Made by a program: the position numbers and the translations under genes | The notes under the pieces: generated by a model | What the model saw: only the letters and a program-made list of their open reading frames with translations | Database searches by the model: none | Told to the model about the DNA's origin: nothing | NCBI GenBank assembly: GCA_027490145.1 | Contig: JAIXYQ010000006.1 | Span: 372,001 to 436,000, forward strand | Length of the DNA: 64,000 nt | Direction of reading: 5' to 3' | Source of the DNA: Planctomycetaceae bacterium | Lineage (GTDB): Bacteria; Planctomycetota; Phycisphaerae; Phycisphaerales; SM1A02 | Shown here: piece by piece, positions 500 through 38,483 of the stretch | Position numbering within the stretch: position 1 is the first letter of the stretch | How the letters are laid out: each line of letters begins with the position of its first letter

Positions 500-506
500 C
501 CATGAA

Positions 507-612
507 GTCGGCGATGACCTACTTTCCCGCTGAGCAGTATCATCGGCGCCAAGGTCTTAACTGCTGTGTTCGGGATGGGAACAGGTGTGACCCCTTGGCT
601 ATCGTCACCGAC
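507..612 (-). rRNA. rrf: 5S ribosomal RNA
   Basis: The minus strand carries the conserved 5S core: CCCATCCCGAACAC, then AGTTAAG, then GCCGATG..ACTG, and finally GGGAAAGTAGGTC. The ends pair (GTCGGT at 612-607 with GCCGAC at 512-507), which sets the boundaries to within a few bases. It follows the 23S gene by about 160 bp and no tRNA lies in the spacer. Confidence 0.93.
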
Positions 613-662
613 AAACCCCAGACACGCCTGTCGGCGAGCCTGAAGAGATGACTTAGGAAACG

Positions 663-758
663 GGTGTCGTGCTCGGCCGACTGGCCGAAACACTCGAGCT
701 CCAAACACGAGATGCTTGAAGGCTTGGAGCCTGGACACCAGACCGTCTGACGACGGTG
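663..758 (-). other. 3' arm of the 23S precursor processing stem
   Basis: Blocks in this spacer are exact or near-exact complements of blocks in the 23S leader. Positions 750-758 pair with 3535-3543 (9 bp). Positions 714-722 pair with 3602-3610 (one mismatch). Positions 703-711 pair with 3613-3621 (9 bp), and 663-671 pair with 3693-3701 (9 bp). The order is nested, as expected for the stalk that brings the two ends of pre-23S rRNA together for RNase III. The pairing is visible in the sequence. The processing role is inferred. Confidence 0.75.
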
Positions 759-770
759 GCTGGTAGACAA

Positions 771-3522
<2,752 letters not shown>

Positions 3523-22055: not shown

Positions 22056-24176
22056 TCAGGGGCACGCGCCCCAGGCGCCCAGCAGCACACCCAGATCAGC
22101 CCCGTCGATCACGCCGTCGCGATTCAGGTCCGCCGGCCCGGCCGTCGCCCAGGCACCAAGAAGCACCCCCAGATCCGCGCCATCGATCACGCGGTCACCA
22201 CTGAGATCCGCCGGACAGGTCGGCCGGTAGCGCGCCAGACGATCGGGCCACTGCGCCACCCACAGGCTGCCATCGCGGGGATCGAGTTCGATGGAGACCG
22301 GTGCATAGAGCCGCTGCGACGATGGCTCGAGCGGATCGAACTGGTCGAGAGTGCGGACCGCCGTGACCCGCCCCGAGCCATCGAGGGTGAATGCGCGGAT
22401 CCAGTTCGACGTGAAGTCACCCGTCAGCATCACGCCACGCCAGTCAAGCGGCCATGCAGGATCGTTGACGATGGGACCACCCACCGCGCAGAACCCGCTG
22501 AAGGGATCCCCCACCGCCCCGGCCGTGCCGCCGACGTTGGCAGTGGTCGCTGCATTGTTCGTGATCGTCGGCGTCCGCGCGAGCGAGGTGGCGTGGTTCC
22601 ACTCGACGATCGGCCGACGGTGCTCGAAGGTCGGCAACGAGGCGGGCAGCGTCGGTGCGGGCTGGCCGGCTGGCACGAGGGCGATCGAGTCGAGGTTCGG
22701 TCCGCTGTTGGAAATCGTGGCCAGCCGGATCACCCGCGTGCCCGGCTGCAACGACAGCGTCGTCGACAGCAGGCGCCAGTCACCCCATGCACCGGTGCTC
22801 GGGAAGGTCCACAGATTCACCGCGACGGCACCGTCCACGCTCACCCGCAGCGTGCGCGAGGCGGTCACGCCCAGCGTGTAGCGCGCCAACAACGTGTAGG
22901 TGCCCGCCGACGGCACCTGCACCGTGAAGTCGATCCACTCACCGGAGTTCGTCTGGTAGTCGCGGTAGCCCGTGCCCTGGTAGCCACGGTCGTTGCCCAT
23001 GACCGGTGCACCGCTCGCGTTGGCCTGTTCCGCCTGGATGAAGGCGAACGGATCGAGCGCCTGGTCAAAGGTCGGATCGAGTGACTCCTGCCTGAGGAGT
23101 TCACGGAACCTGTGCTGCGCGGGACTCCCCAGTCCGGTCGGCGCGTCGGGATTCAGCGTGCCGGCATCCCAGTAGCCATTGTGCACCGTGAGCCCCTCGA
23201 AGAGCGGCCAGCCGAAGTTCTGGCGCGGGGCGTCGCAGACCTGCACATCCTCCCAGGTGCTCCAGCCGACATCCGCGATCACGATGCGACCGGGGTTCGC
23301 CAGTGCTGGATCCGTCGAACCCGTTCCGGGCTCGATCCAGGACCGGAACGGATTGCGCAGCCCGAGTGCGAAGACGCGGCTCTTGGCCGAGCGCGGCGCC
23401 GCAGCGTCGAACCATGGATTGCTCGGCACGCCGTCGCCGGTCGCCGGATCCAGGCGAAGCACCTTCCCGTTCAGGCAATCGATGAGCTGCGAGCGGAACG
23501 CGCCGATGTTCTCCTTGGCACGGAGGATGCCACGGGCGAGTCCGTCGTTGACCCAGCCGTCGGCGACCTGGCCACCGACGTCGACTTCGTTGTAGCTCGC
23601 GGCATCACCGGTGGTCGCCAGCAGCGTGCCGTCACGACCGAACATCAGGGTGCCTGGACCGTGTGATTGGTGCACGATCGGGATGCCGGTCGATGCACTC
23701 TCACCCACGAGCACCACACGGCTCGACGGGTCGACCGCCGTGAAGCCCGACTCGGGCGTGAGCCGATACCGCGTGATCCGACCAATGGTCGCGGTGAAGT
23801 AGGTGTCCGTAGCTGGGTTGTACTGCGGCGTGCCGGCGGCATCGAGATGGTGGCGATCGACGACGTACATCAGGTAGATGAAGCCGTTCTGCTCGATCTG
23901 CGGATGCGCCACGACCGACATGAGCCCGTAGTCGCGCCAGCCACCGACCTCGTCGCGAAGCGTGAGTGCGGGGTTCGCCGCTCGCGTTCCATCGGCTTCG
24001 AGGATCCACACCGCACCCTGGCGTTCCCACACGAGCGTGCGCCCCTGCGGCAGCGGCTCGGTCCCAACGACCTCGTTCCAGGCTCCGCCGACGAAGGACT
24101 TGGCGATGCCGACCGGGGGTGCGGGGTGGGCGGCCGCAAGGCCGAGCAGCACGATGGGAACGGCCGACTGGAGCAT
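22056..24176 (-). CDS. Secreted glucose/sorbosone dehydrogenase-like protein with carbohydrate-binding and dockerin-like modules
   Basis: A signal peptide (MLQSAVPIVLLGLAAAHP) is followed by a six-bladed propeller of the soluble PQQ glucose/sorbosone dehydrogenase type (about residues 30-380), with motifs such as VVAHPQIEQNGFIYLMY and ALGLRNPFRSW. A beta-sandwich resembling CBM6/CBM35 comes next (GNDRGYQGTGYRDYQTN near 400, then GTYTLLARYT), then a return to propeller-like sequence. The C-terminus has two EF-hand repeats ending GADLGVLLGAWG. It probably oxidises sugars outside the cytoplasm. I chose the ATG at 24176 because the signal peptide starts there. An upstream ATG at 24257 adds unlikely sequence. 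Confidence 0.87.
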   Translation of the reverse strand: MLQSAVPIVLLGLAAAHPAPPVGIAKSFVGGAWNEVVGTEPLPQGRTLVWERQGAVWILEADGTRAANPALTLRDEVGGWRDYGLMSVVAHPQIEQNGFIYLMYVVDRHHLDAAGTPQYNPATDTYFTATIGRITRYRLTPESGFTAVDPSSRVVLVGESASTGIPIVHQSHGPGTLMFGRDGTLLATTGDAASYNEVDVGGQVADGWVNDGLARGILRAKENIGAFRSQLIDCLNGKVLRLDPATGDGVPSNPWFDAAAPRSAKSRVFALGLRNPFRSWIEPGTGSTDPALANPGRIVIADVGWSTWEDVQVCDAPRQNFGWPLFEGLTVHNGYWDAGTLNPDAPTGLGSPAQHRFRELLRQESLDPTFDQALDPFAFIQAEQANASGAPVMGNDRGYQGTGYRDYQTNSGEWIDFTVQVPSAGTYTLLARYTLGVTASRTLRVSVDGAVAVNLWTFPSTGAWGDWRLLSTTLSLQPGTRVIRLATISNSGPNLDSIALVPAGQPAPTLPASLPTFEHRRPIVEWNHATSLARTPTITNNAATTANVGGTAGAVGDPFSGFCAVGGPIVNDPAWPLDWRGVMLTGDFTSNWIRAFTLDGSGRVTAVRTLDQFDPLEPSSQRLYAPVSIELDPRDGSLWVAQWPDRLARYRPTCPADLSGDRVIDGADLGVLLGAWATAGPADLNRDGVIDGADLGVLLGAWGACP

Positions 24177-24363
24177 CGGTCGAAGGTAACACCGCTTCCG
24201 GCTGCCCCCCAACGGGACTTGCCCGACGACGGCCAGAAGGTGCCAAGAACCGACCAAGCGTGTGCTTCCTCACAGGATTCCGCCCATGGCGTGCCCCAGG
24301 TGGGGGTGAATCCCCACATCGACCCAGCGCGAACGTCTCCGGCTCCCTTCCGCCGACACATCC

Positions 24364-25419
24364 ATGTCCATCACCAGAACCACGACGCTGCTTGTCCTGC
24401 TGGCCCTCACCGCCCCCGCCGTCGCCGTCGACCTTTCGGCTCCCGGCGCGCTGGTGCCGTCGCGGCGCGACGTGACCGTGGTCAGGGCCGACGGATCGAC
24501 CTTCCTGGCCACCCTGCATTACCCCGGCACCAGTACGGCCGTCGGCGCGCCCCTCGATGCCAGCGCCGGCCCGTACCCGATCATCGCCTTCGGCCATGGC
24601 TTCCTGTCGGCCGTCACGCTGTACCAGTCCACGGGCGCACACCTGGCCAGCTGGGGCTTCATGACGATCATGCCGCAGACGCAGGGCGGCCTGCTCCCGA
24701 GCCACGGCGCGTTCGCGGCGGATCTTGTGTCCAGCCTGAACTGGCTTGCCGCCCAGGGCGCCAGCAGCGGCTCGCCGTGGTTCGGTGGGGTCGATGCAAG
24801 CGCGCGCGGCGTCATGGGTCACTCGATGGGCGGCGGCTGCTCGCTGCTGGCCGCGCAGGCCGACCCAGGCATCCGTTGCGCCGTGCCATGGGCCGCAGCC
24901 AACACGAACCCCAGTTCGATCACCGCGGCGCTCGGCGTCGAGGGTGCAACGCGGCTCATCGTCGGCAGCCAAGACACCATCGTCACGCCGAGCTCGACCG
25001 CGGCCATGTACCCCAACCTCGCGGGTGCATCCCAGCTGGTCACGATCACCGGCGGCTACCACTGCGGCTTCATCGACTCATCGATCGCGTTCTGCGATTC
25101 GGGTTCGATCACGCGCGAGCAGCAGCTTGCGATCGTGCGGCGCGAATCGACGGAGTTCCTGCTGCTCTACCTGAAGGGGCAAGGCGCGCTGTGGGACGCC
25201 GTCTGGGGCGACCCACCGGCCGGCGCAGGCGTGGTGCAGCAGTCCACGCAGACGCCCGACCTCGATGGCAACGGCCGCGTGGATGGCGCGGACCTGGGCT
25301 TGATGCTCTCGGCCTTCGGCACCAACGATCCGTCGCAAGCGGTCCGAGGCGACCTGAACGACGACGGTCAGGTCGATGGACGTGACCTTGGTGTGCTGCT
25401 GGCCGGTTGGACGGGCTGA
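24364..25419 (+). CDS. Secreted alpha/beta hydrolase with dockerin-like tail
   Basis: This 351-residue protein has a signal peptide (residues 1-22) and an alpha/beta-hydrolase domain of the dienelactone hydrolase/chlorophyllase/polyesterase-like group. The nucleophile is the Ser in MGHSMGGGCS, the acid is probably the Asp in VGSQDTIV, and the base the His in GGYHCGF. An oxyanion-hole segment, FGHGFLS, lies upstream. Two EF-hand repeats (LDGNGRVDGADLG and LNDDGQVDGRDLG) close the protein. It likely cleaves an ester substrate outside the cell. Which substrate cannot be read from sequence. The stop is 7 bp from the convergent gene. Confidence 0.88.
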   Translation: MSITRTTTLLVLLALTAPAVAVDLSAPGALVPSRRDVTVVRADGSTFLATLHYPGTSTAVGAPLDASAGPYPIIAFGHGFLSAVTLYQSTGAHLASWGFMTIMPQTQGGLLPSHGAFAADLVSSLNWLAAQGASSGSPWFGGVDASARGVMGHSMGGGCSLLAAQADPGIRCAVPWAAANTNPSSITAALGVEGATRLIVGSQDTIVTPSSTAAMYPNLAGASQLVTITGGYHCGFIDSSIAFCDSGSITREQQLAIVRRESTEFLLLYLKGQGALWDAVWGDPPAGAGVVQQSTQTPDLDGNGRVDGADLGLMLSAFGTNDPSQAVRGDLNDDGQVDGRDLGVLLAGWTG

Positions 25420-25426
25420 GCCGGGG

Positions 25427-26191
25427 TCACTCCGCCGACGGCGTGAGGTCGGGCTTCGTCGTCCAACGCGGTGACCAACCGGGCTTGTCCACGCGCTTGC
25501 GCAGCACGACCGTGTTGTCCAGGTCGAGGTCCGAGGTCCAGATCCAGCGCGCCCCGGAGAAGTCATGCTGGAAGAAGGGTTCCTTGGGATCGATCCTGTC
25601 CTGTGGGTACTCCGTGGCCTGATCCCATGAGGCATCGTCGAAGCCCACGGCGAACCAGTCCTTGGGCAACGGCTCGCTGCGGACCTTGGGATTGGCCGTG
25701 TCACGGTCGATGGGACCATGCATGAAGCACTTGGCCTTCCAGGATGCGTCGGTGACGGTGCCGTCGGCGAATCGCAGGATGAAGCCACCATCACCGATCT
25801 GCCGGCCGTACTCGCAGCCCGTCACGGGATCGGCGTTGTCCTTCGCGAGCACCGCGATCGTCATCGGGTACTCCGGCAGCAGGTCGATCGCGACCACGTT
25901 GTGCGGCAGGAAGTCGATGCTGTCGACCGCGACCTGCTTGCCGTTGACGTAGAGCATGAACCAGTTGTCGGCGTACATCGCGCCCTTGATCGTGTCCGAC
26001 ATCGATGGCTTCACGATCCCGTCCTGCGGTGGCTTGCGTGCACCGCGCCCCTGACGGTTGCCCTGGCCACCGCCCTGCTTTCCCTTGCCGGGCGGCGGTG
26101 GCTGCTGGTCACCGTCCTGAGGGGGCTGCTGCGCAAGGGCGAGCGACACCAAGGTTCCGGTGGCGATGATCGCGATGGTCCTGGGATTCAC
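25427..26191 (-). CDS. Secreted jelly-roll protein, last gene of the ECF operon
   Basis: The GTG start at 26191 overlaps the stop of the preceding gene (GTGA) and opens directly into a signal peptide (VNPRTIAIIATGTLVSLALAQ). Residues 22-60 form a Gln/Pro/Gly-rich linker like those of its operon partners. The remaining ~195 residues have the beta-sandwich pattern of galactose-binding-like domains, with YADNWFMLYVNGKQV and a late SGARWIWTSDLDLDN segment typical of sugar-binding jelly rolls. I see no catalytic motif. The longer in-frame reading to 26641 is rejected because it overlaps the upstream gene with unlikely sequence. Confidence 0.78.
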   Translation of the reverse strand: MNPRTIAIIATGTLVSLALAQQPPQDGDQQPPPPGKGKQGGGQGNRQGRGARKPPQDGIVKPSMSDTIKGAMYADNWFMLYVNGKQVAVDSIDFLPHNVVAIDLLPEYPMTIAVLAKDNADPVTGCEYGRQIGDGGFILRFADGTVTDASWKAKCFMHGPIDRDTANPKVRSEPLPKDWFAVGFDDASWDQATEYPQDRIDPKEPFFQHDFSGARWIWTSDLDLDNTVVLRKRVDKPGWSPRWTTKPDLTPSAE

Positions 26192-29100
26192 TTGGACTCC
26201 TTCTTCGACGGTGCGACTGCGCGGGGACTCAGCTCGTAACGATCGATGATGGTGCCGTTGGGTTCCTTCGCACCGCCACCGCCGCGACGCCCGCCGCCGC
26301 CTTGGCCGCCGCCCTGCTCGCCACCGGCAACGGCCGTCCGCACGAACTCCACGCTCGCCGAGTCCGGCGCGACGTTGATGCGCACGTGGCCCGGGCTGCC
26401 GTGCAGCGTGCCGCTGGTGTAGCCGTACTGGGCAGCGCTGCGGGTGTTCCCCGCCGGGTTGCCCGGCTGGGGCACGCACTGGTAGTGCACGCCATCGCGC
26501 TGGCTGTGCACGTAGAGGTGATCGTGCCCGTGGAAGACGGCATTCACCCCGTGCTTGGCGAGCAGGTCGTGGATCGGCATCGGCCACCCGGCGCGGTGTT
26601 CCTTGAAGCCCGGCGATCCATCGGCGTTGAGCCCACCCCACTCGAAGTACGGCGAGCTCTCGACGCCGCCCCGTGACTCGCTGCCGCCCATGCCGCCCAC
26701 CAGGTGGTGGATGAACACGAAGCGGTAGCGCGCCTTCGACGACTCGAGGGTGCGCGTGAGCCAGTCGTACTGCTCGCGGCCGAGCGTGGCGTTCCAGCTG
26801 GCATCGGTCGGCTTGAGCGGTTCATCACTCGGGCGCTCGGGGCGCTCGCCCTGACCGCCGCCCTGACCACCGCCTTGACCGCGTCCGCCTTCACCGCCTT
26901 GGCCGCCACCCTGCTGGCCGCGCGCGCTGCCGCCGCCGCCCTTGCCGACGCGTCGGCTGGTCGACCAGAACGGATCGAGCATGATGAACTGTGCATCGCC
27001 CCAGGTGAAGGCGTAGTAGTTCGCACCGCGTCCGTCATCGAAGCCGGTCTTGCCGGTGTACATCGAACCATCGATGACCGGCTCTGGGAAACGCATGGTC
27101 CGCTCGCGGTAGGACCATGGGCCGATGTCATCGTCCGCGGTGCCCGAGTCGCCCTTCTCGCCGTCGTGGTTGCCGAGCACCATGAACAGCGGTGCGCTGT
27201 GGCAGAGCCTGCTGAAGTACCACCGCTGCGCGTCGTACTGGGGCAGCGTGCGCTGGAAGTCCCGGCCGCGCTTGTCCGTCATGAAGGTGTCGCCAAGATC
27301 GACGAAGAGATCGGGCTTCGCCGCAAGCATGTTGGCGAGCGTCTGCTCGTACACGCGCGGATCGACGCCCTGGTCCAGGTGCGAGTCGGCCTGCACCGTG
27401 AAGGTGAAGGACTCGCCGGCGGGCCGTGGGGTGTGGAACGACGACTCCTCCCCGTGGCTGGGCTCGCCGCCGGCGGACGCGCGCCACAGGAAGCGATAGC
27501 GGTACGACGCATCCGGGGCGAGCCCATCCATGGTGAAGCTCACAGGCGTTCCAGCCGTCATCGGCTGCTGCGGCGTCGTGCGCCGCGCTGCATCGCCGTC
27601 GCGCCAGAACTCGACCTGACCGATGCGGTCGCTCGAGGCCACGACGCTGGCCGTCATGGCATCGCGCGTGGGGCGTACGAGGATCACGTCGTGATCATGC
27701 GCGGGGACATCGGTCTTGAACGCGGTCATGCGGGCAAGCAAGCCGCCTTCGCCGCCTTGGCCGCCGCCGCCTTGACCGCCGCCCTCACCGCCACCTTGGC
27801 CGCCTCGACGACCGCGACCACCTTGGCCTTGACCTTGTCCCTGACCTTGGCCCTGACTTTGGCCCTTGCCCTGGGGCGCATCGGTCGCACCGTCCTGGCG
27901 GGCATAGCGCAGATCGACGCTGGCACTGCCGAGCGTGGACTCCTTGATCGCATCAAGCAGCTGCGCGCGCGTGGCACCTTCCTTCAACTTCGGCTCCGCC
28001 GACAGCGCGTAGACCGTTACCGTGTAGACCTTTTCACCGCGGCCCTGCGAGCACGGCGGCGCGTACTCCGCGCGGCGTGACATGGTGTTGGAGCCCCAGG
28101 TGCCGATGCTCGCGTCGCCGAGCTTGAGTTCCGTCGTCGACGCGGGGATGCCCCACACGACCATGTACACATGCTCATCGCCGTCCGGTGGCACGTGATG
28201 CATGGCGATCGCCAGGCTCTTCGCCGCGGCGGGCGCCTTCGCCCAACTCAGCGCGGGGCTCTTGCCCGCGCCGTCACAGGTGCACTGCACATCGAGCAGG
28301 CCCGCTGCATCGAGCGATCCGCACGAGAGCGCAAAGCCATCCTTCGGCGGAGCTGCACCATCTCGCGGCGGCTTCCCGCCTGCGCCGCCCTGGCCTCCGC
28401 CGCCGCCACCACCGCCCTGGCCACGCCGCTGGCCGCCGCCTTGTCCACCTTGACCGCCACCACCCTGGCCGCCTCGACCGCCGCGTGGCTGGTCGCCACC
28501 CTGGCCACGGGCGCGCGGCATGTGTTCCTCCACGCGCTTCTCGCCATCGGGACCGATGAACTCGAAGATGACCTTGCCGCCATCCTCGACCCGGTAGTTC
28601 ACGAACGATGCCTTGCCGCCCACCTCGTACCGCAGTGACCAGGCCTTGGGCCCGGTCTGCTCGAAGCCGGTGATCGATGCTCCACGCAACGGCGGCAGCG
28701 CAGGCCGCACACCATTCGCGCGCGGCTGCGGGATGACCTGCGATTCGTTGCCGGTGCCCTCGAGCTGCACCTTGCCGCGCAGGCCGCCGTTGATGTACGG
28801 GAAGGTCTTCGAGGCGTGGTAGTGGTACGAGCGCGTGCCGCCGTCGAAACCCTGACCCTTCGGCACCTCGCAGAAGTGTCCGTTCAGGTCATCGAGCGGC
28901 TCACGCGAACCCAGCGGGCACGCCAAGTCCTGGCCCTGCTTAGCCTTGGGGTCAAAGAGCCCGTAGACCGGGAAACCATCAAGCGCGAACGCAATCGGCT
29001 TGCCCTTGCCCACGATCGTCTCGATCGCCAGCGGCGCCGCGTGATAGTGGTAGTCGTCGCCACGGCCGCAGTGGCCGCCGAACTCATCGAGTTCGCCGAT

Positions 29101-29625
29101 CGCGTAGCTGTCGCGGCCACCGTTGTTCAGCGCATTGAAGATGGGAATCCCGTTCGCGGCCAGGGCCACGGCACCCTTCATGAGCGCGTTCTTGCCGTGG
29201 ATGGGCGTCTCGGCGAGCTCGGGCTTCAGCGGGATCTGCCAGGCATTCGCGCCCGTGTAGGGCTGCGGCAGCGGCACCTGCTGCTGCCATGAGCGGATAC
29301 CGACCATCATCTTCGTCTCGAGCGGTGGGTGCGGGAGCCCATCCGACTCGACATAGAGCCACCGCTCATCGAACCGCGTGGCCACGAACGGTGCGAATGG
29401 TGCGAACGACTGCGCTTGCCACGGCACCTCGGCAACGGGCGCTGCCGATGGATCGATCAGCAACGCGCCGGGTTCATGCAGCGCCGCGATGGCGGCAGCG
29501 AGTTCTGCGGGCTCGAGTGCGGTGCCGTGACCCAAGCTCACGCGCGGGTCATCGTGGAACCCCGGCGGATGCGCCAGGACCGCAGCGACCGGAAGAACGA
29601 TGACGCTGGCGAACGCGCGAATCAC
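26188..29625 (-). CDS. Secreted YHYH-PEBP-metallophosphatase fusion with Gly-rich linkers
   Basis: This 1145-residue protein starts at a GTG (29625) that overlaps the sulfatase stop and begins a signal peptide. There are three recognisable modules. The first is a YHYH domain (about residues 90-340) with its motif seen twice (DYHYHAAP near 190 and SYHYHASKTFPY near 270). The second is a PEBP/YbhB-like domain (about 428-545) with LSWAKAP and YAPPCSQGRGEKVYTVTVYAL. The third is a purple-acid-phosphatase-like unit: a fibronectin-like domain (about 640-740), then a metallophosphoesterase with QADSHLD (746), DLGDTF (777), GNHDG (816), IHH and HGHDH (1031). Gly/Gln tracts separate the modules. A secreted phosphoester hydrolase is the likely activity of the last module. 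The role of the first two is unknown. Confidence 0.88.
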   Translation of the reverse strand: MIRAFASVIVLPVAAVLAHPPGFHDDPRVSLGHGTALEPAELAAAIAALHEPGALLIDPSAAPVAEVPWQAQSFAPFAPFVATRFDERWLYVESDGLPHPPLETKMMVGIRSWQQQVPLPQPYTGANAWQIPLKPELAETPIHGKNALMKGAVALAANGIPIFNALNNGGRDSYAIGELDEFGGHCGRGDDYHYHAAPLAIETIVGKGKPIAFALDGFPVYGLFDPKAKQGQDLACPLGSREPLDDLNGHFCEVPKGQGFDGGTRSYHYHASKTFPYINGGLRGKVQLEGTGNESQVIPQPRANGVRPALPPLRGASITGFEQTGPKAWSLRYEVGGKASFVNYRVEDGGKVIFEFIGPDGEKRVEEHMPRARGQGGDQPRGGRGGQGGGGQGGQGGGQRRGQGGGGGGGGQGGAGGKPPRDGAAPPKDGFALSCGSLDAAGLLDVQCTCDGAGKSPALSWAKAPAAAKSLAIAMHHVPPDGDEHVYMVVWGIPASTTELKLGDASIGTWGSNTMSRRAEYAPPCSQGRGEKVYTVTVYALSAEPKLKEGATRAQLLDAIKESTLGSASVDLRYARQDGATDAPQGKGQSQGQGQGQGQGQGGRGRRGGQGGGEGGGQGGGGQGGEGGLLARMTAFKTDVPAHDHDVILVRPTRDAMTASVVASSDRIGQVEFWRDGDAARRTTPQQPMTAGTPVSFTMDGLAPDASYRYRFLWRASAGGEPSHGEESSFHTPRPAGESFTFTVQADSHLDQGVDPRVYEQTLANMLAAKPDLFVDLGDTFMTDKRGRDFQRTLPQYDAQRWYFSRLCHSAPLFMVLGNHDGEKGDSGTADDDIGPWSYRERTMRFPEPVIDGSMYTGKTGFDDGRGANYYAFTWGDAQFIMLDPFWSTSRRVGKGGGGSARGQQGGGQGGEGGRGQGGGQGGGQGERPERPSDEPLKPTDASWNATLGREQYDWLTRTLESSKARYRFVFIHHLVGGMGGSESRGGVESSPYFEWGGLNADGSPGFKEHRAGWPMPIHDLLAKHGVNAVFHGHDHLYVHSQRDGVHYQCVPQPGNPAGNTRSAAQYGYTSGTLHGSPGHVRINVAPDSASVEFVRTAVAGGEQGGGQGGGGRRGGGGAKEPNGTIIDRYELSPRAVAPSKKESK
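26845..26940 (-). repeat. Gly-rich coding repeat in the metallophosphatase domain
   Basis: Imperfect short repeats encoding GGGGS, GGQGG and GQGGG runs (about residues 895-930). They interrupt the metallophosphoesterase domain between its GNHD and late HH motifs, so they probably form a surface loop. The reading frame stays open. Confidence 0.6.
27743..27873 (-). repeat. Gln-Gly dipeptide coding repeat
   Basis: Low-complexity DNA encoding GQGQGQGQ followed by GGQGG-type repeats, forming the linker between the PEBP and phosphatase modules. The units are degenerate at the DNA level, and selection for the peptide composition is plausible. Confidence 0.65.
28380..28525 (-). repeat. Gly-rich coding repeat between YHYH and PEBP modules
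   Basis: Degenerate repeats encoding RGGQGGGG, GQGGGQRRG and poly-Gly stretches, about residues 367-415 of the fusion protein. They mark the domain boundary. Confidence 0.65.
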
Positions 29626-31262
29626 TCGGTGCCTCCATCCTGCTTGGACTTGCCGCCACCTTGGCCGCCACCCTGCCCGCCCTGCTTGTTGCCCTTGCCG
29701 CCGCCTTGGCCGCCCTTGCCGCCGCCACCACCGCCGCCTTGGCCGCCGCCCTGGCCGCCGCGGCGTTCGGGTGCCTTGCCGGTTCCCGCCGCAGGATCGG
29801 TGTTCTTCACCGCGCGCTGCGCGTGCACCGCTTCGAGGTAGCTGTCCATCTGCTTGACGAGCGCCGCGACGAGTTCGGCGTTGGCTGCGGCCAGGTCGTT
29901 CGACTCGGCACGGTCCTTCGCGATGTCGTAGAGCTTGATCGTGCCGGCGTCGTCGTTGCGCACGAGCTTCCACTGGTCGCGGTAGATCGCCGTGGCCGGA
30001 CCGCCGTTGTTCAGGTCGTAGTGCGGGAAGTGGATGACCAGGTCGGGGAACGCGCGCTGCACCGCATCGGTGCCACCCTTGAACGCAGGCACCAGCGTGC
30101 CGCCCTCGATCGCAGGGACCGATGACAACGCGGTCGGCTGCTTCACCGGCGACCCCGCAAGATCCAGCATCGTGGGCACCAGGTCCATGCCACAGGCGCG
30201 GACATGGCTGATGGCGCCGGCCTTCACGCCTGGGCCTCGAACGATCAGTGGCACACGGATGCCGCCTTCACTCACGCTGCCCTTGGCTCCGCTGAAGGGC
30301 GGATTCGCCTGCTGGCGACCGCCACCACCGCCGCCACCCTGCGCGCCGTGGTCGGCGCTGTAGAAGACGAACGTGCGATCCGCGATCCCCAGTTCGGCGA
30401 TCGCCGTGAGCACGCGACCGACCTGCGCGTCCACGAGGTTCGCACCCGCGATCGCGCCCATCGGCTTGCCGCTCACACCGGGCACGAGCCCCTTCGCCGT
30501 GGCGAGCGATTCGGGCGTGGCCTCCTCCTCGGAGCCGAAGCCGTAGTGTGAGATCTGCAGGTAGAAGGGCGTGCCGGCCTTCACTTGCTCGCGCATGAAC
30601 GCGATGCCGCGATCGGTGATCTCGACCGCCTGCTTGGGGTTGGGTGCGGTACCGCGCTCGGGCCCCTGGTTCGAGTTCGCGCCGTCGCAGAGCGTGAAGC
30701 CGAGCTGCGTCGGCGACTTGCGGCCGACGTGCCACTTGCCGAAGTGCGCGCTCGCGTAGCCCAGGTCGCCGAGCAGACCGCCGGTCGTCTTCACGCCCGC
30801 CGGCAGGTCGACATCCGCCGTGGGCGGGATCATGCGCATGAGCTTGTACGGCGATTCGCCGTCCTCGGTCTTGCGTCCGCCCTCGGCCTGGTAGGTCATG
30901 TGCAGCTTGGCCGGGCTGATGCCGGTCACGAAACTCGTCCGCGACGGCGTGCAGCGCGGGCACGTGACGTAGAAGTCGCTGAAGCGCGTGCCTTCCTTCG
31001 CAAACGCCTCGAGGTTCGGCGTCAGGCCGGCGGGGCGCGCGGTGCTCGGCGGCTCGCCGTCCATGTCGACCGAGGTGCTCGACCAGCCCTGCGCCTCGGC
31101 CTGGATGAAAACGAAGTTCGGCTTCGCGGCGGACGCGGCAGCCTTGCCGGGCTTGGCTCCATCGGTGGGCTGTTGGCCCACGGGCGGCGCGCCGACGAGC
31201 GCGAGCGTCATGGAGGTGGCGAGTGCAATGAGCGATGGGACGATGGATGCCATGTGGATCAT
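29622..31262 (-). CDS. Secreted sulfatase with Gly-rich C-terminal tail
   Basis: This 546-residue type I sulfatase has a signal peptide and the formylglycine motif Cys104-Thr-Pro-Ser-Arg108, which must be oxidised by a formylglycine-generating enzyme. A late SADHGAQGG segment carries the second metal/substrate site. At the usual metal-binding DD pair near the N-terminus the sequence reads IQAEAQGW, so both aspartates are replaced. The last ~50 residues are a GGQGG/GGGKG tract like those of the next gene. The ATG at 31262 overlaps the anti-sigma stop (ATGA). ATG at 31253 is an alternative start. The substrate is presumably a sulfated glycan. Confidence 0.9.
   Translation of the reverse strand: MIHMASIVPSLIALATSMTLALVGAPPVGQQPTDGAKPGKAAASAAKPNFVFIQAEAQGWSSTSVDMDGEPPSTARPAGLTPNLEAFAKEGTRFSDFYVTCPRCTPSRTSFVTGISPAKLHMTYQAEGGRKTEDGESPYKLMRMIPPTADVDLPAGVKTTGGLLGDLGYASAHFGKWHVGRKSPTQLGFTLCDGANSNQGPERGTAPNPKQAVEITDRGIAFMREQVKAGTPFYLQISHYGFGSEEEATPESLATAKGLVPGVSGKPMGAIAGANLVDAQVGRVLTAIAELGIADRTFVFYSADHGAQGGGGGGGRQQANPPFSGAKGSVSEGGIRVPLIVRGPGVKAGAISHVRACGMDLVPTMLDLAGSPVKQPTALSSVPAIEGGTLVPAFKGGTDAVQRAFPDLVIHFPHYDLNNGGPATAIYRDQWKLVRNDDAGTIKLYDIAKDRAESNDLAAANAELVAALVKQMDSYLEAVHAQRAVKNTDPAAGTGKAPERRGGQGGGQGGGGGGGKGGQGGGKGNKQGGQGGGQGGGKSKQDGGTE
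29640..29765 (-). repeat. Gly-rich coding repeat at the sulfatase C-terminus
   Basis: Degenerate repeats encode a Gly/Gln/Lys tail (GGQGGGQGG, GGKGGQGGG, GNKQGGQGG). The same composition recurs in the two downstream operon proteins. Confidence 0.65.
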
Positions 31263-32239
31263 TCCTCGATGACGTGACGATCGGGAGCGTGATGGGCGGC
31301 GTGCCCGTAGAACGCATCGGGTTGCGACGACTCATCGCGGAGCTGGAACTCGACTGAGCGCGGACCGCCGCGTGCCTGCGGAAGGTTGCCCAACTGCATG
31401 GAGTGGATGATTGAGGTCGCCGGGTCGTAGGCGATCTCGATGGTGCGCGGGCCGCCACGCGCATCGGCGCGCCGCGAGCCGACGATGCGCGGCCGGGGCT
31501 GGCCGAGCCCGGGCGCCGGCGGCACGAGCACGAGGTCGTACGACGCACCGAGTTCCGCCAGGCTCTCGTGCGGGTGCACGAACGGCAGGTCGAACTTGCT
31601 GCCGGGCACCGCACCGCTGAACCGCCGCAGGTCCTTGCTCGTGCGCACGGCGCCGTCTTCGCGCACCAGCCAGGCCTGCGTGCCGTCGCAGCCGGTGATC
31701 ACTCGGCGACCCTCGGCATCGATCCGCACGAGCACGTAGCGATCGGGATCACGAACGGTCAGGATGGCCCCGTCGATCGAAGGCTGCTTGTCGCGCGCCG
31801 GGGCCGGTGCATCGGCGGCGGGTGCGGCATCGCGGCGGCGCTTGCCGCCCTGCTCATCGACGGCGCGCAGCACATAGGTGCGGTCACCGGTGCGCGCGCG
31901 GGCGACGAGACGAGCCACCACATCACCGGCGTTGGCCGTGGGCGACGTGCGAAGGCCGGTCCACAGCAGGAGTCCGGCCACCGCAAGCACGGCCGCCGCG
32001 GCAGCCACTCGGCGCACGATGGTCCATGCAGCGATCTGCCGCGCACTGGTGCGACCGATGACCGCAGCACCATGCTCCTTCGACAACGCATCGTGCAGCA
32101 CGGCCAAGGCGGCGACCTCACGGGCCAGCTCCGGATCGCTGGCCAGGGCCTGGCTGAGTCGATCCGCCCCCGCTGCATCGAGCGTGCCGTCGAGCATGGC
32201 GTGGGCGAGGCCAAGCAGTTGGTCGCGATCCTGGCTCAC
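31259..32239 (-). CDS. Membrane anti-sigma factor
   Basis: This 326-residue protein has a helical cytoplasmic start (residues 1-70), which should hold the sigma factor. One membrane helix follows at about 73-93, then a periplasmic domain of about 230 residues containing a segment reminiscent of LolA/outer-membrane-carrier-like or MucB-like folds (VLRAVDEQ, DRYVLVRIDAEGRRVITG). No zinc-binding HxxxCxxC is present, so it is not a ZAS-type anti-sigma. It overlaps the sigma gene (ATGA) and the sulfatase gene (ATGA). The order sigma then membrane protein supports the assignment. Without that context it would be a hypothetical protein. Confidence 0.8.
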   Translation of the reverse strand: MSQDRDQLLGLAHAMLDGTLDAAGADRLSQALASDPELAREVAALAVLHDALSKEHGAAVIGRTSARQIAAWTIVRRVAAAAAVLAVAGLLLWTGLRTSPTANAGDVVARLVARARTGDRTYVLRAVDEQGGKRRRDAAPAADAPAPARDKQPSIDGAILTVRDPDRYVLVRIDAEGRRVITGCDGTQAWLVREDGAVRTSKDLRRFSGAVPGSKFDLPFVHPHESLAELGASYDLVLVPPAPGLGQPRPRIVGSRRADARGGPRTIEIAYDPATSIIHSMQLGNLPQARGGPRSVEFQLRDESSQPDAFYGHAAHHAPDRHVIEE

Positions 32240-32760
32240 GCTGTGCCCCCGTCCCCGGCGGCGCGTGCATCGATGCAGTCGCGCAGCTGTTCACGAAGCC
32301 GTTGCAGCGACTTCGCGACCGTGTTCGGGTGTAGGCCCATGAGTTCGGCGATGCGGGCCGGCTTCAGGTCGCCGCGGTAGCGCAGGTCACAGAGTTCGCG
32401 CTGCTGTGCGGGTAGTGCCTGGATGCAGTCCGTCAGGTGGTCGAGCCGCGCGCGATCGGCGGAGCCGGCCTGCTCGAACGCCGCAGCCAGGCTGTCCTGC
32501 GCGGCTTCACTCAGCGGTACGGGGAAGCGGGCACCGCGGCGACGGGCGTCGGCGGCGGCGCGGCGGGCGATCGTCAGCGCCCAGGGCAGGAACGGGCGCG
32601 CGGGGTCGTAGGTGCCGAAGGACTCGAGCACGGCGACCGCGGTCTCCTGCAGCACCTCGTCGCGGAGCGCTGCGTTGCCCACGAGCGCGTGCACGAACGC
32701 GCTCACCGCAGGCTGCGCGGCGGTCCAGAGGGCAAAGGCTTGCTTGGTGCGCTGATCCAC
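32236..32760 (-). CDS. ECF-type RNA polymerase sigma factor
   Basis: This 174-residue protein has sigma region 2 at about residues 15-75 (LRDEVLQETAVAVLESFGTYDP, WALTIARRAAADARRR) and region 4 at about 105-160 (CIQALPAQQRELCDLRYRG, then a helix-turn-helix IAELMGLHPNTVAKSLQRLREQL). It is of the planctomycete/verrucomicrobial ECF kind. It heads a five-gene operon whose junctions are all 4-nt overlaps, so it probably controls the secreted enzymes encoded behind it. It diverges from the Fic gene. Confidence 0.92.
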   Translation of the reverse strand: MDQRTKQAFALWTAAQPAVSAFVHALVGNAALRDEVLQETAVAVLESFGTYDPARPFLPWALTIARRAAADARRRGARFPVPLSEAAQDSLAAAFEQAGSADRARLDHLTDCIQALPAQQRELCDLRYRGDLKPARIAELMGLHPNTVAKSLQRLREQLRDCIDARAAGDGGTA

Positions 32761-32838
32761 TGTGAGGGATTCCCGCGTCAGACCGGATCGTGACGGGGAT
32801 TCCCCAATTCTCGCCCGCTCCAGGCCACCCCGATCGGC

Positions 32839-32891: not shown

Positions 32892-34067
32892 ATGCCGACT
32901 TGGAACTGGCAACTCCCGCAGTGGCCTGAGCTTCGGTGTGATCCCGCGAGCTTGGCGGAAGCCGAAGCCCGGTTCGCGGCCGGCGCAACCGTTCTGCTGA
33001 CCACGCTGGCCGCGTCATCCACCGAGTCGGTGGAGCGCATCATGGTCGAGCTGGTCTCGGACGAAGCGGTCACCACGTCGACGATCGAAGGCGAACTCCT
33101 CGATCGGGACAGCGTGCAGCGCTCGATCCGGCGGGCGCTGAGCCTTGGACTGCCCGATGCGGCCGCGACACCGGCCGAGCGCGGCATCGCAGAACTGCTC
33201 GTCGATGTCTGTCGGACCTTCACGCAGCCGCTCGATGCCGTGACCCTGCATCGATGGCATGCCATGGTCATGCGCGGACGCGATGCGCGGGCCGAACCCG
33301 GCCGATGGCGCACGAGCGCCGAACCGATGCAGGTCGTCAGCGGTCGGCTCGATCGTCCGACGGTGCACTTCGAAGCGCCGCCTGCCGAGCGCGTCCCGGG
33401 CGAGATGCAGCGCTTCATCGAGTGGTTCAACGCCACGGAACCCACGGTCGATGCTCCAAAGCTGGGCGCGCTGGCACGCGCTGGCCTGGCGCACGGGTGG
33501 TTCGAGAGCATCCATCCCTTCGCGGATGGCAACGGTCGGATCGGTCGTGCACTGTCCGAGAAGGCCCTTGCGCAGTCGATGCCGCATCCTTCTTTGACGG
33601 CGCTCTCGCCCGTGATCCTGGCCCGGCGCGGCGACTACTACCGTGCGCTTGCGCAGGCCAGCACCACGCTCGACGTCGGCCCCTGGCAGCGGTGGTTCGC
33701 GGGCATCGCGCTCCAGGCCCAGGCGCGTTCGATCGCCGAAGTCCAGTTCATCGCCGCCAAGGTGCGCATGCTCGCGGCGCTCGGGCGTGACCTGAATGTG
33801 CGTCAGGAAAAGGCGCTCCTTCGCATGATGGAGCGCGGTTCGACGGGATTCGAGGGCGGCATGACGGCCTCGAAGTACATGGCCATCACGCGCGCAAGCC
33901 CCGCGACCGCCACGCGCGACCTGGCAGGGCTCGCGGAGCTCCGCGCACTGGTGCCGCACGGTGCGCGCCGCCACATGCGCTACGAACTGCAGCTGCCGGT
34001 CTGCCCCGTGCCGACGATCACGGTGCTGCCGACTGGAGCGATCGTGGAGACGGTGTCGACCCCCTGA
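32892..34067 (+). CDS. fic: Fic family protein (predicted AMP transferase)
   Basis: Fic enzymes transfer AMP, or another nucleotide part, to hydroxyl groups of target proteins. The catalytic motif HPFADGNGRIGR is complete (residues 208-219). An N-terminal inhibitory helix motif T62-STI-E66-G67 fits the class II auto-inhibition pattern (S/T)xxxE(G/N). A DUF4172-like N-terminal part precedes the Fic core, and a winged-helix-like C-terminus follows it (ASKYMAITRASPATATRDLAGL). The 391-residue length is typical. It neighbours a defence-like gene pair but could equally be a housekeeping regulator. Confidence 0.93.
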   Translation: MPTWNWQLPQWPELRCDPASLAEAEARFAAGATVLLTTLAASSTESVERIMVELVSDEAVTTSTIEGELLDRDSVQRSIRRALSLGLPDAAATPAERGIAELLVDVCRTFTQPLDAVTLHRWHAMVMRGRDARAEPGRWRTSAEPMQVVSGRLDRPTVHFEAPPAERVPGEMQRFIEWFNATEPTVDAPKLGALARAGLAHGWFESIHPFADGNGRIGRALSEKALAQSMPHPSLTALSPVILARRGDYYRALAQASTTLDVGPWQRWFAGIALQAQARSIAEVQFIAAKVRMLAALGRDLNVRQEKALLRMMERGSTGFEGGMTASKYMAITRASPATATRDLAGLAELRALVPHGARRHMRYELQLPVCPVPTITVLPTGAIVETVSTP

Positions 34068-34211: not shown

Positions 34212-35189
34212 ATGTCCCGAGCACGAGTCACCGGCAGCCACTCAGCGTTAGCGAAGGAGGCCCACCGTCACCTCCTCCTGCTCGAGCGACTGCAACACCT
34301 GCTCCGCGACAGCCGGTACACCACGACCTACAAGTTCGCGGTGCTTCATGCGTTGTGTGATCTTGCACTTGAGATGCCAGTACGGGAACAGCGGGTGCCG
34401 CTCACGCAGCTGGCCGAACGCGTGATGGAGCTCTACTGGCAGCAGGTCATTCCCTTCCAGGCGCCCAGTGCGCGCAAACCGGTTTCGTTGCGCCAGAGCA
34501 CCGGCGGGCCCGCTGCGGTCCTCCAGCTTGTGACGAGTTGTCGATCGGCAGGAATCGGTCGCCGGGGCGCCCGATCGAAGGCAGACCGCCGGGTTGACTA
34601 CACACCGACGATGCTGGCCCTTCTTAAGAAGGATGTGCTACGCCGGTTGCAGCCTGGGGCCACGCCCTTCCTCTACCGAATGCCGATCGGCCGTCAAGAA
34701 CTGGAGTTGTGTCCCGGCGTTGCCGACGCTCTGCGCCGCTTCCACGGTTTGCTCACCGACACGATCCAGGCACGGTGGACGGCGTGGATCGAGCAGCGCA
34801 ATCCACAGGTTCGTGGGAGCGACGCGCTGCGCGAGCATCTCTTCGGGATCGATCGGATCCGCCTGCGAGCGGTGGTACGGCCGCTCTTGGCGCTGCAGGA
34901 CGGCCGCTGCTTCTATTCAGGCATGCGCATCACGGAACGCACGGCCGAGGTCGACCATGTCCTGCCCTGGAGCCTGACCCGCAACAACTCAGTCGGCAAC
35001 CTGGTGCTTGCCAGCAAGCGCGCTAACCTCGCGAAGGGCGATCGCTTGCCGACGGTAGATGAAGCGAAGCGTTGGATCGAGCGGAATAGGGACCACTCTG
35101 ATGCTCTAGCGCGAATTGCCGAGGCGGCGAATCTTGAGTGGAGACCGGAAGGCTTGACGCGACTGGCGCGAAGTCTCTCGACGCAGTGA
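34212..35189 (+). CDS. HNH endonuclease
   Basis: This 325-residue protein has an N-terminal helical domain (LLLLERLQHLLRDSRYTTTYKF, about residues 22-45) and a C-terminal HNH nuclease domain at about 228-280. The HNH core reads RCFYSGMRI, then EVDHVLPWSL with the catalytic His, then NSVGNLVLASKRANLAKGD with the Asn and final Lys/Asp. Only one of the usual zinc-knuckle cysteines is present. It should cut DNA in a metal-dependent way. It ends 15 bp from the convergent helicase gene. The 144 bp before it hold no gene I can support. Confidence 0.85.
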   Translation: MSRARVTGSHSALAKEAHRHLLLLERLQHLLRDSRYTTTYKFAVLHALCDLALEMPVREQRVPLTQLAERVMELYWQQVIPFQAPSARKPVSLRQSTGGPAAVLQLVTSCRSAGIGRRGARSKADRRVDYTPTMLALLKKDVLRRLQPGATPFLYRMPIGRQELELCPGVADALRRFHGLLTDTIQARWTAWIEQRNPQVRGSDALREHLFGIDRIRLRAVVRPLLALQDGRCFYSGMRITERTAEVDHVLPWSLTRNNSVGNLVLASKRANLAKGDRLPTVDEAKRWIERNRDHSDALARIAEAANLEWRPEGLTRLARSLSTQ

Positions 35190-35204
35190 TTCTTCCCGCG
35201 CCGA

Positions 35205-38200
35205 CTAGCGCGCGCGAGATGCGATCTCGAACCAAGCCGGCGGCAAGGGCACCGCGAGTTCACCGGTGACACTGATGGGTCGTTCCCCCTGAAGCTCAGT
35301 GGGGCGGAAGGAACCCATGAAGCAGAACGGGGATGAACCGAACTCGTCTTTCTGGCTTTGGCGCACAAAGAGCCACATCGTTCCTAGCCCCTGTTTCGCC
35401 CTGAGGATTCGCTGCCCAACTTCCGACTCAACATAGGTTGCGGCAGGAGTTTGCCAATGAAACACCGATGGGCTCACCGCATAGTCTCGATATCGCGTGC
35501 GCTCTGTGAACCCCTCGCCGTCCTTATCCAGCGTGACGAACATGACGCTGGAAGAGTGCGAGGGGAGCCAGAGTAACCCCTCCCGTGGCACCCCGGACCA
35601 GCAAGATTTCCAGCCGAATGCAGCCAGGGCTTGCAATCGAGTGTATGAGCCATGAATGAGTAAAGGCACCGGCAGTTCCGCAACCTCAGCTGGGGTCAAC
35701 CGAGGCAGGCCAATACTTGCCGCTCCGGCATCGAGCAAGTCTTGACACTCCGTGCGAAGCACTACGTTCTCTCTCAACTCACCGAGGACGTCGAGCACAC
35801 CTGCTGCGCCATCCAGCCCCCGCTTGCGCTTCACGGCATCCGCAAAGCCAACGCAGACCATGTCGCTGCGCAACCGGTCGCTCTGGGATAGACCAGCCAC
35901 CACGGTCCGCGGATCAGAATGCTCGAGCTCCTTCAGGAGCTTCACACCAAACGAGGTAACACCGTTGTCGCGCATGGCTGCGAGCGCGCCAAGCCCAGCG
36001 AGAAAGGGCGAGATGGAGCCGAGATCACTTGCACCGCCGTCGCCATTCGCCGCCTGGCGAAGCGCGCACCACGCCCGCTTTCCACCTTGCCCGGAGTACA
36101 GCTCGCGCGGATCAAGCTGGCGCCAGTCAAGAAACTCCCGAAGCGAGGGATGGCGTTCGAGCTGCTCACGCTGAAACCTGATGTCTTCCACCCATTGCGC
36201 GGTAAGGCCACGAATTGCCGAGCGAATGCTGGCGATCACGCGCTCTTGCGCAACGCGTTCTAACGTGACCGAGCAACCGGCAGGCAAAGCCGAGAAACCG
36301 CTTCTCACTTGACCCTCAATGGAGACCCCTGGATCAGCCAGCAGCGCTCTCAGCCGCTGGTCGAACCGATACTCCTGACGGTGCTGTCCGACGAAGTCCA
36401 ACACCGTCAAGCAGTCCTTACCCGACCCGGGCGACAGTCGAAGCCCACGGCCAAGCTGTTGCAGAAACACGGTCAAGCTGTTTGTGGGCCGCATGAACAG
36501 CACCGTGTCAACCTCAGGGATGTCAACTCCTTCATTGAACAGGTCCGCAACGAAAACAAGCTGCGTCTCTCCGCGCCGCAACCGGCCAATCACCTCGTCA
36601 CGTCGCTCAAGGTCATCTGATCCATCAAGTGACTCGGCACGAAGTCCAGAACGACCTTGACTCTCTGCGGTTGCGCGCCACCTCTCGAACACGCCGGCCA
36701 TGTAACGAGCATGGTCCACCCCACTACAGAATCCGATCGCGCGCATACGCGAGGGGTTGGCAACATAGTTGTCAATCGCGGCGCTCACACCACTCACCCA
36801 AGATTGACCAGCCAAGATGTATCGACTCTCTACGGCTGACATGACGTAACCGCGTTGGCTCAACCAGCCCACCTCACGGAGGTCGATGTCATCTGTAACT
36901 CCGAAGTACCGAAACGGCACAAGCAGTCGACGTGCAATCGCATCGGGTAATCGAATCTCGGCCGTCACTCGCGATTCAAAGTGCCGCGTCACATCGGATC
37001 CATCAGCGCGCTCAGGCGTTGCGGTCAGGCCGAGCAGCGAAGCGGGATCGAGGGACTCAAGAAGCTCACGCCACGTCGGCGCTTCCCCGTGATGAACTTC
37101 GTCTACGACCACAAAGTCGAAGTCACCTGGGGACATGGAGCCGTCACGCACACGGGCCGACCACGACTGGATCGAGGCAAACAGCGCTTGACAAGGCCAA
37201 TCGTTCTCTCCGCCCACCAAGAACCCGCCGAAGTTGAGATCACGCAAGACTTGGCCGAACATGACCCGGGCTTGACGGAGGATGCGCTCTGATTGCGCGA
37301 TATACAGCAGCTTTGGACGGCGTCCCTCGCGGGCAACAAAGTCGGCTTCGAAGCGGCGATAGTCGAAAGCCGCAATCATCGTCTTTCCGGTTCCCGTCGC
37401 CGCGACGACAAGATGCCGCCGACGTCCGAGCAAACGGTCAACCTGAATCTTGTCAAGGATGGCCTGCTGGAACGGCTTTGGCTCAAGATCAAAGAGAGGA
37501 AGCGAAACAGCTTGAGGAGCCACACCCGCGAGTGCGCCCGATTCGCGCGCTACCAAGTCCCTGAACTGCTGGTGAGTCGGGTGGTCCTCTGCGAGGCCGT
37601 ACTCGATGAACTCAGGGTCGCCCCACCATTGGTCGAATGTCTCTTCGATCTTGGTCCACAATCCAGGCGAAGCAACTTGAGACAGGCGAACGGTCCATTC
37701 AAGGCCTTCGGTGAGCGCTGGCCGCGACAGGTTCGCAGATCCAACGTAGGCGCTACCGAATCCACTGCTGCGCGCATGGATGTAGGCCTTGGCATGTAGT
37801 CGCGTTGAGTCGGTCTCAGTGGAGAAGCGGATCCGAAGCCGCCCGTGATGCTGCCTTGACACGGCAGCAAGAACGTCCAATGCCTTCGGATCTGTTGCAC
37901 CCATGTACGCCGTCGTGACCACCCGCATCGAGCCGCCACGCTCGAGAAATGCAGCCACATCGCTCTGCAACAGCTTGACAGCGCTGAGCTTGATGAAGGA
38001 CACCAGCCAGTCCACGCGATCGCAGGTAGCCAGCTCGCGCTTCAACTGCAGCAGAAGGCTCTCAGTGCCTTCTCTGCCTGTGAGAAGTCCATGGTCGGAG
38101 AGATCTGGCGGTTGATCGCCGCGCTTCGGGCCGATGCGCTCGAGCACCTGCGGCTGGATTGAAGTCGCGCGAACAGCCTCGCTATCAGTTCCATTACCGA

Positions 38201-38483
38201 TGAAGGCGAGCAACCGATTAGCGAGCTCGATGTCCGACTGCGTGGCTTCTCGATCAAGACCAAGCCGCTCCTCCAGGGACTCCAGAAGCGACACCGCGAG
38301 CTCTCTTGCCACAAGCCGCGCATCCCGACCCTTCATCGGCCGCGTCGCCACCTCGAATCCCGCCCGACGAGCGGACTCCAGCAACTCCGACACCCGGCCG
38401 TCAATCAGACTGTCATACAGCCCCTCAACCGGTAGCCCGTTGACTCGGCGGATTCGTCGGTAGGAGGGCGATTCGAACGACAC
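35205..38483 (-). CDS. PLD-family nuclease / SF2 helicase / DUF3427 protein
   Basis: This 1092-residue multi-domain protein starts with a phospholipase-D-like nuclease domain (about residues 130-290) with the HKD-type motif HAKAYIH near 230 and GSANLS shortly after. The SF2 helicase core follows, with Walker A AATGTGKT (about 361), DEVHH (about 458), LTATPERAD, and motif VI QQLGRGLR (about 673). The last ~300 residues match the DUF3427 type. Proteins of this architecture are found in bacterial defence islands. Base composition is visibly lower in GC than the flanking genes, which suggests transfer. Confidence 0.9.
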   Translation of the reverse strand: MSFESPSYRRIRRVNGLPVEGLYDSLIDGRVSELLESARRAGFEVATRPMKGRDARLVARELAVSLLESLEERLGLDREATQSDIELANRLLAFIGNGTDSEAVRATSIQPQVLERIGPKRGDQPPDLSDHGLLTGREGTESLLLQLKRELATCDRVDWLVSFIKLSAVKLLQSDVAAFLERGGSMRVVTTAYMGATDPKALDVLAAVSRQHHGRLRIRFSTETDSTRLHAKAYIHARSSGFGSAYVGSANLSRPALTEGLEWTVRLSQVASPGLWTKIEETFDQWWGDPEFIEYGLAEDHPTHQQFRDLVARESGALAGVAPQAVSLPLFDLEPKPFQQAILDKIQVDRLLGRRRHLVVAATGTGKTMIAAFDYRRFEADFVAREGRRPKLLYIAQSERILRQARVMFGQVLRDLNFGGFLVGGENDWPCQALFASIQSWSARVRDGSMSPGDFDFVVVDEVHHGEAPTWRELLESLDPASLLGLTATPERADGSDVTRHFESRVTAEIRLPDAIARRLLVPFRYFGVTDDIDLREVGWLSQRGYVMSAVESRYILAGQSWVSGVSAAIDNYVANPSRMRAIGFCSGVDHARYMAGVFERWRATAESQGRSGLRAESLDGSDDLERRDEVIGRLRRGETQLVFVADLFNEGVDIPEVDTVLFMRPTNSLTVFLQQLGRGLRLSPGSGKDCLTVLDFVGQHRQEYRFDQRLRALLADPGVSIEGQVRSGFSALPAGCSVTLERVAQERVIASIRSAIRGLTAQWVEDIRFQREQLERHPSLREFLDWRQLDPRELYSGQGGKRAWCALRQAANGDGGASDLGSISPFLAGLGALAAMRDNGVTSFGVKLLKELEHSDPRTVVAGLSQSDRLRSDMVCVGFADAVKRKRGLDGAAGVLDVLGELRENVVLRTECQDLLDAGAASIGLPRLTPAEVAELPVPLLIHGSYTRLQALAAFGWKSCWSGVPREGLLWLPSHSSSVMFVTLDKDGEGFTERTRYRDYAVSPSVFHWQTPAATYVESEVGQRILRAKQGLGTMWLFVRQSQKDEFGSSPFCFMGSFRPTELQGERPISVTGELAVPLPPAWFEIASRAR

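Follow-up and report, generated by a model that had tools for sequence, protein, structure and literature searches.

Five genes on the reverse strand at positions 25427–32760 of the window (the whole 64-kb stretch of DNA that was analysed) appear to form a dedicated, signal-responsive operon whose exported hydrolases would act together on a single complex substrate of surface or environmental origin, a reading to which we give a probability of roughly 60%. The operon encodes an ECF sigma factor, a membrane anti-sigma-like protein, a sulfatase, a YHYH-PEBP-metallophosphatase fusion and a jelly-roll protein, the last three of which are predicted to be exported. Sequence comparison establishes the gene set, gene order, fusions and domain assignments, as well as conserved catalytic motifs and a conserved promoter-like motif, and we infer a regulated surface enzyme set for a compound substrate with sulfate, phosphate and sugar groups. 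Below we propose how sensing, sigma release, autoregulation, substrate and enzyme activity may fit together.

Operon layout and gene junctions

The operon begins with the gene for the sigma factor (32236–32760, −; 174 aa). It is followed by the genes for the anti-sigma-like protein (31259–32239, −), the sulfatase (29622–31262, −), the YHYH-PEBP-metallophosphatase fusion (26188–29625, −; 1145 aa), and the jelly-roll protein (25427–26191, −; 254 aa), which has no Pfam family. Successive genes overlap by 4 nt: GTGA between sigma and anti-sigma (32236–32239), ATGA between anti-sigma and sulfatase (31259–31262), GTGA between sulfatase and fusion (29622–29625), and GTGA between fusion and jelly-roll gene (26188–26191). 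The first-pass annotation had placed the same five genes and their 4-nt junctions correctly, but had read the first junction as ATGA.

A 4-nt overlap is the commonest operon junction in bacteria; such overlaps say little alone, and their conservation is what counts. The sigma/anti-sigma overlap was conserved in all eight loci compared (relatives plus the window). The anti-sigma/sulfatase overlap was found in two of these eight, the others being spaced by 0 to +21 nt, and every junction other than sigma/anti-sigma kept its overlap only partly. Thus, the coupling of sigma to anti-sigma is conserved and that of the enzymes is looser. Fixed 4-nt overlaps, which had been singled out as a telling feature, were rejected as a signature of the system.

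A scan of the operon for sigma-70 promoters and intrinsic terminators found none. An Rfam search of the 64-kb window found no riboswitch or leader RNA, its matches being confined to 23S and 5S rRNA. These rRNA genes lie at 506–3522 (−), with no 16S gene in the window; thus, the 16S gene appears to be unlinked to 5S/23S.

A PETase/chlorophyllase-like hydrolase with a dockerin-like tail (24364–25419, +) is convergent with the operon, 7 nt from its end, and such a hydrolase also adjoins the cassette in genome G117 (82% identity). At 22056–24257 (−) lies a gene for a glucose/sorbosone dehydrogenase-like protein with a CBM6, in which a GC-type dockerin-like domain scored just below the cut-off. Divergent from the sigma gene is a gene for a Fic protein (DUF4172-Fic; 32892–34067, +), followed at 34212–38483 by an HNH-like ORF and a PLD-helicase-like ORF recognised by eye; the stretch from the Fic gene onward is possibly a defence region.

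Promoter-like motif

A promoter-like motif, GTCACGATCCGGTCTGACGCGGGAAT, was found at 32769–32794 (−), with its GTCAC lying 34 nt upstream of the first codon of the sigma gene. GTCAY occurred at −34/−35 upstream of the sigma start in seven of eight Phycisphaerales, and farther from the aligned start in Planctomycetia and in two Verrucomicrobiota loci. The downstream half, GCGGGAAT, was common to about half of the Phycisphaerales examined (n = 8). Genome-wide (2.66 Mb) the full motif had one exact site, which favours a local regulon, and it was not seen before the paralogous sigma genes that we looked at. Nine sites in the genome carried two mismatches, with none for a reversed-pattern control, and these nine gave no sign of a wider regulon above background. 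The sigma factor probably drives its own operon. Because the −35-like element stands at −34, transcription would start at about the start codon, predicting a leaderless message, and the operon mRNA is perhaps of this kind. The suggestion of a self-contained regulated operon gained from this putative autoregulated promoter, given the conservation of the motif, its single exact site and its absence before paralogous sigma genes.

Sigma factor and putative anti-sigma factor

The sigma factor matched TIGR02989 at 130.1 bits, above the curated cut-off of 124.55 bits, and carries regions 2 and 4 (Sigma70_r2 and Sigma70_r4_2 matches). In a tree, the sigma factors of 13 Planctomycetota cassettes formed one clade (support 90/88), and those of three distant loci with LolA-type anti-sigmas belonged to another lineage. 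A single clade for all cassette sigmas was not supported; those of Verrucomicrobiota do not join firmly.

The anti-sigma protein of the window had no Pfam match, and its orthologues gave weak matches to zf-HC2 (0.00093) and RseA_N (0.072). An alignment of eight orthologues and an AlphaFold model (pLDDT 74.8) delimited a putative N-terminal anti-sigma region, a hydrophobic segment at about residues 72–93 (by eye), and a LolA/RseB-like domain at about residues 104–326 (31262–31930, −). The model has helices at the N-terminus, a long helix that spans the hydrophobic stretch, and a beta domain at the C-terminus. A sequence search for solved relatives found none, and the fold search alone was informative. 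Using Foldseek, the C-terminal domain matched LolA (4mxt, 9.1e-9; 1ua8, 2.4e-7) and RseB (2v43, 1.2e-5), whose common fold is a convex beta sheet with covering helices. As modelled, the protein looks like RseA-like and RseB-like parts in a single chain; its position, topology and weak domain matches suggest a putative anti-sigma function. Two of the three distant LolA-type anti-sigma loci (G400 and G442) lie near PEBP and metallophosphatase genes and are without YHYH or jelly-roll. From this we suggest that the sensor belongs with the PEBP/phosphatase part.

Exported proteins

The sulfatase is of S1 type, with a PF00884 match (4.6e-35) and the formylglycine motif CTPSR, and its residues C104 and R108 were conserved across cassettes. 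Its best solved relative was 9fo1, a kappa-carrageenan sulfatase of S1_16 (3.5e-48). In the fusion protein, a YHYH region (~28471–29475, −; PF14240), a PEBP domain (~27904–28296, −; PF01161) and a calcineurin-like metallophosphatase (~26296–27684, −; PF00149, 9.2e-10) are joined by G/Q-rich linkers. The DxH, GD, GNH(D) and GHxH motifs of the metallophosphatase were kept in 61 sequences. In the YHYH domain, H135, H143, H145, D130, D140, D141 and D166 (numbered in the excised domain) were at least 95% conserved (n = 88). An earlier study predicted that YHYH acts as a Zn-dependent hydrolase (PMC7824862), and we treat the domain as a putative Zn hydrolase. These conserved motifs, suited to sulfate and phosphate esters, agree with the first-pass proposal that the enzymes would act on sulfated and phosphorylated substrates.

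G/Q-rich (GGQGG) tracts were located on the reverse strand at 29625–29775, 28370–28510, 27730–27870, 26830–26950 and 26040–26090. They occur in all three exported proteins, including the C-terminal tail of the sulfatase, and also in the orthologues; they may be linkers of a common type or a localisation feature that the proteins share.

The jelly-roll protein has a core at about residues 61–238. Its model had a pLDDT of 64.6, with much of the core at 60–90. By VIA, the model best matched residues 166–296 of SaRha78A (Z 8.3 over 118 residues) and a Pleurotus lectin (Z 7.6), a Z of about 8 being not far above that of unrelated models; the best Foldseek E value was 0.045. Weak sequence matches to rhamnosidases 6i60 (E 0.087) and 2okx (E 0.94), and a PF08531 match in one of 20 homologues (E 0.0011), point the same way as the fold match to SaRha78A. 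The protein thus weakly resembles, in its modelled fold, the sugar-binding (CBM67-type) domain of alpha-L-rhamnosidases. As a lead only, the aligned ranges would place Asp179-Asn180 of SaRha78A, which we take to participate in rhamnose and calcium binding, near D75-N76 in the invariant ADNWF motif.

Conservation of the gene set across genomes

The same gene order, which the first-pass annotation had proposed to seek in planctomycete genomes, was found in several genera and is thus not confined to this strain. When 151 genomes from this family were searched, the succession sigma, anti-sigma, sulfatase, YHYH-PEBP-phosphatase, jelly-roll was observed in genera g1, g25, g26, g42, g43 and g45, with some loci incomplete at contig ends, and the fusion protein was near full length in several genera. 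The five-gene order was complete in G070, G072, G058, G045, G133 and G329. Genome G026 had the same order, the jelly-roll being undetected, and three others (G117, G149, G043) had part of it, as far as their contigs reach. Within the window's own genus the cassette was patchy.

Farther afield the set recurs with changed order, in Planctomycetia, in Verrucomicrobiota and in G440. In G235, from another family, YHYH-PEBP, phosphatase, jelly-roll and sulfatase are present without this sigma. The parts are also fused in different ways. In G026, a single frame of 1772 codons holds matches to sulfatase, YHYH, PEBP and phosphatase (one match was flagged with a stop); in G139, G150 and G090, sulfatase and phosphatase share a frame and YHYH-PEBP stands apart; and in G106 and G325, YHYH-PEBP-jelly-roll is a single frame. 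Such changing fusions of the same parts argue that the parts act together. Two Verrucomicrobiaceae loci, L129 and L131 (2–6920), have frames of about 2300 codons just before YHYH-PEBP-jelly-roll, with two sulfatase matches and one metallophosphatase match.

A scan of genome contigs yielded 213 jelly-roll homologues, and the best 80 of these 213 loci were read. By record title they came from Planctomycetota, Verrucomicrobiota and Armatimonadota, with a few labelled otherwise that are probably mislabelled MAGs. YHYH was present in 69 of the 80, PEBP in 60, phosphatase in 59, sulfatase in 53, and sigma plus anti-sigma in about 14; YHYH, PEBP and jelly-roll shared one frame in 40. The strand count was limited to those 42 loci that had 6 kb of sequence to either side. 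In these, YHYH (39), PEBP (37), sulfatase (34) and phosphatase (29) lay on the same strand as jelly-roll, and the opposite strand held YHYH once and sulfatase twice. Conservation was highest for the jelly-roll protein (median identity of 67% to the window protein, across phyla), a ranking that the jelly-roll-based locus search favours; median identities were 50% for YHYH, 46–60% for phosphatase, 41% each for PEBP and anti-sigma, and 37% for sulfatase. The exported set was also found in Brevifollis gellanilyticus NBRC 108608 (L156), with no sigma gene within the stretch read.

Outside a few lineages most cassettes were without the sigma factor, and it can no longer be regarded as an obligatory member of the system. 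Outside some of the Planctomycetota, most cassettes lack the sigma/anti-sigma pair; thus, regulation by this pair is either dispensable or recruited.

Discussion

We propose the following mechanism for the operon. The sigma factor would be held by the membrane anti-sigma, whose LolA/RseB-like domain, on the periplasmic side, would detect a signal of amphiphilic or glycan nature. Once set free, through proteolysis or a change of conformation, the sigma factor would transcribe the operon to which it belongs, using the GTCAY...GCGGGAA promoter. Export would bring the sulfatase, the YHYH domain (a putative Zn hydrolase), the PEBP domain and the phosphatase domain to a substrate that the CBM67-like protein would bind. 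That substrate is likely an algal or bacterial glycan or glycolipid that carries sulfate and phosphate and perhaps contains deoxyhexose.

Alternatively, the enzymes could target a lipid or lipoglycan (LPS, glycolipid or phospholipid) and not polysaccharide in free form. In that case lipid would be bound by PEBP and by the LolA-like domain, and sulfatase and phosphatase would trim polar groups of a membrane amphiphile. This amphiphile could come from the cell itself, in envelope remodelling or under stress, or from another cell. LolA is a carrier of lipoproteins, PEBP is frequent among the loci read (60 of the best 80 of 213), and the distant LolA-type anti-sigmas of G400 and G442 accompany PEBP and metallophosphatase in loci that lack YHYH and jelly-roll. 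RseB, moreover, has been proposed to bind LPS (PMC8103513). We nevertheless judge a lipid target the less likely reading: the most conserved part resembles a sugar-binding domain, the best solved match of the sulfatase acts on carrageenan, and ligands are known for few bacterial PEBP proteins.

A different doubt concerns the regulators. The exported set may be the real unit, with the sigma/anti-sigma pair only a neighbour, through co-transcription or recent recruitment, that answers general envelope stress and not the substrate of the enzymes. The pair's rarity (about 14 of the best 80 of 213 jelly-roll loci), the families that retain the set without it, and the known role of RseB-like domains in envelope stress sensing all speak for such an arrangement. 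Yet the pair heads the cassette in several Planctomycetota classes with one sigma clade, and the single exact motif site favours a local regulon; we see a merely neighbouring pair as the less likely reading. That the five genes are ordinary neighbours in an unremarkable compact operon, with no shared function, we consider very improbable indeed. Overlaps of 4 nt are frequent in bacteria, and PVC phyla are rich in sulfatases (PMC5615132), but the parts co-occur across phyla, favour one strand and have fused with each other repeatedly, all of which weighs against it. We retain the dedicated, signal-responsive operon as our preferred reading.

More tentatively, the cassette may represent a surface-hydrolase machine, undescribed and spread across phyla, that comprises YHYH, PEBP, sulfatase, metallophosphatase and CBM67-like protein and serves one specific substrate class. 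In some lineages it would be switched on by a sensor of a little-known type, an anti-sigma that itself includes an RseB/LolA-like domain for ligand binding. A literature search, mostly outside subscription journals and thus weak as to absence, returned no paper on the cassette, on YHYH with a sulfatase or on LolA-fused anti-sigmas. The parts are of known kinds; no match was found in the literature searched for their combination, for the conservation of that combination across phyla, or for a LolA-type anti-sigma made in one piece. Through the cassette, the enigmatic YHYH domain would gain catalytic partners and a functional context that is conserved, bacterial PEBP proteins would be linked to extracellular hydrolysis, and an example would be at hand of an anti-sigma that unites sensor and inhibitor in a single chain. 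The presence of the exported set in a named strain, B. gellanilyticus NBRC 108608, makes substrate tests possible.

Comparison with known systems

Like other YHYH domain proteins (PF14240), the fusion has the YHYH motif together with the three His and the Asp that make up the predicted Zn site (PMC7824862). It differs in being an exported fusion with PEBP and metallophosphatase, encoded in a putatively regulated cassette with a sulfatase partner.

Polysaccharide utilization loci of Bacteroidetes place secreted glycan enzymes under ECF/FecR control. As in those loci, an ECF sigma factor and a putative membrane anti-sigma stand here beside secreted enzymes that may act on sulfated glycans, whereas SusC/SusD, the TonB receptor, glycoside hydrolase and lyase are lacking and a LolA-like sensor replaces FecR signalling. 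Domain searches found no glycoside hydrolase, lyase or transporter among the five genes, and the operon therefore does not qualify as a polysaccharide utilization locus as commonly defined.

The envelope stress switch RpoE-RseA-RseB of E. coli combines a membrane anti-sigma, with its cytoplasmic anti-sigma region, and a periplasmic regulator of LolA fold (RseB), features that the putative anti-sigma described here would share. In our operon, by contrast, the LolA/RseB-like domain would be inside the anti-sigma itself, and the exported hydrolases are encoded in the operon. Clostridial SigI-RsgI senses biomass through an anti-sigma fused to an extracytoplasmic ligand-binding domain and controls polymer-degrading enzymes, a plan that the present operon appears to share. 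The sensor there is a carbohydrate-binding module, whereas here it would be LolA/RseB-like; the sigma families differ, and the sugar-binding-like protein of our operon is a separate exported protein.
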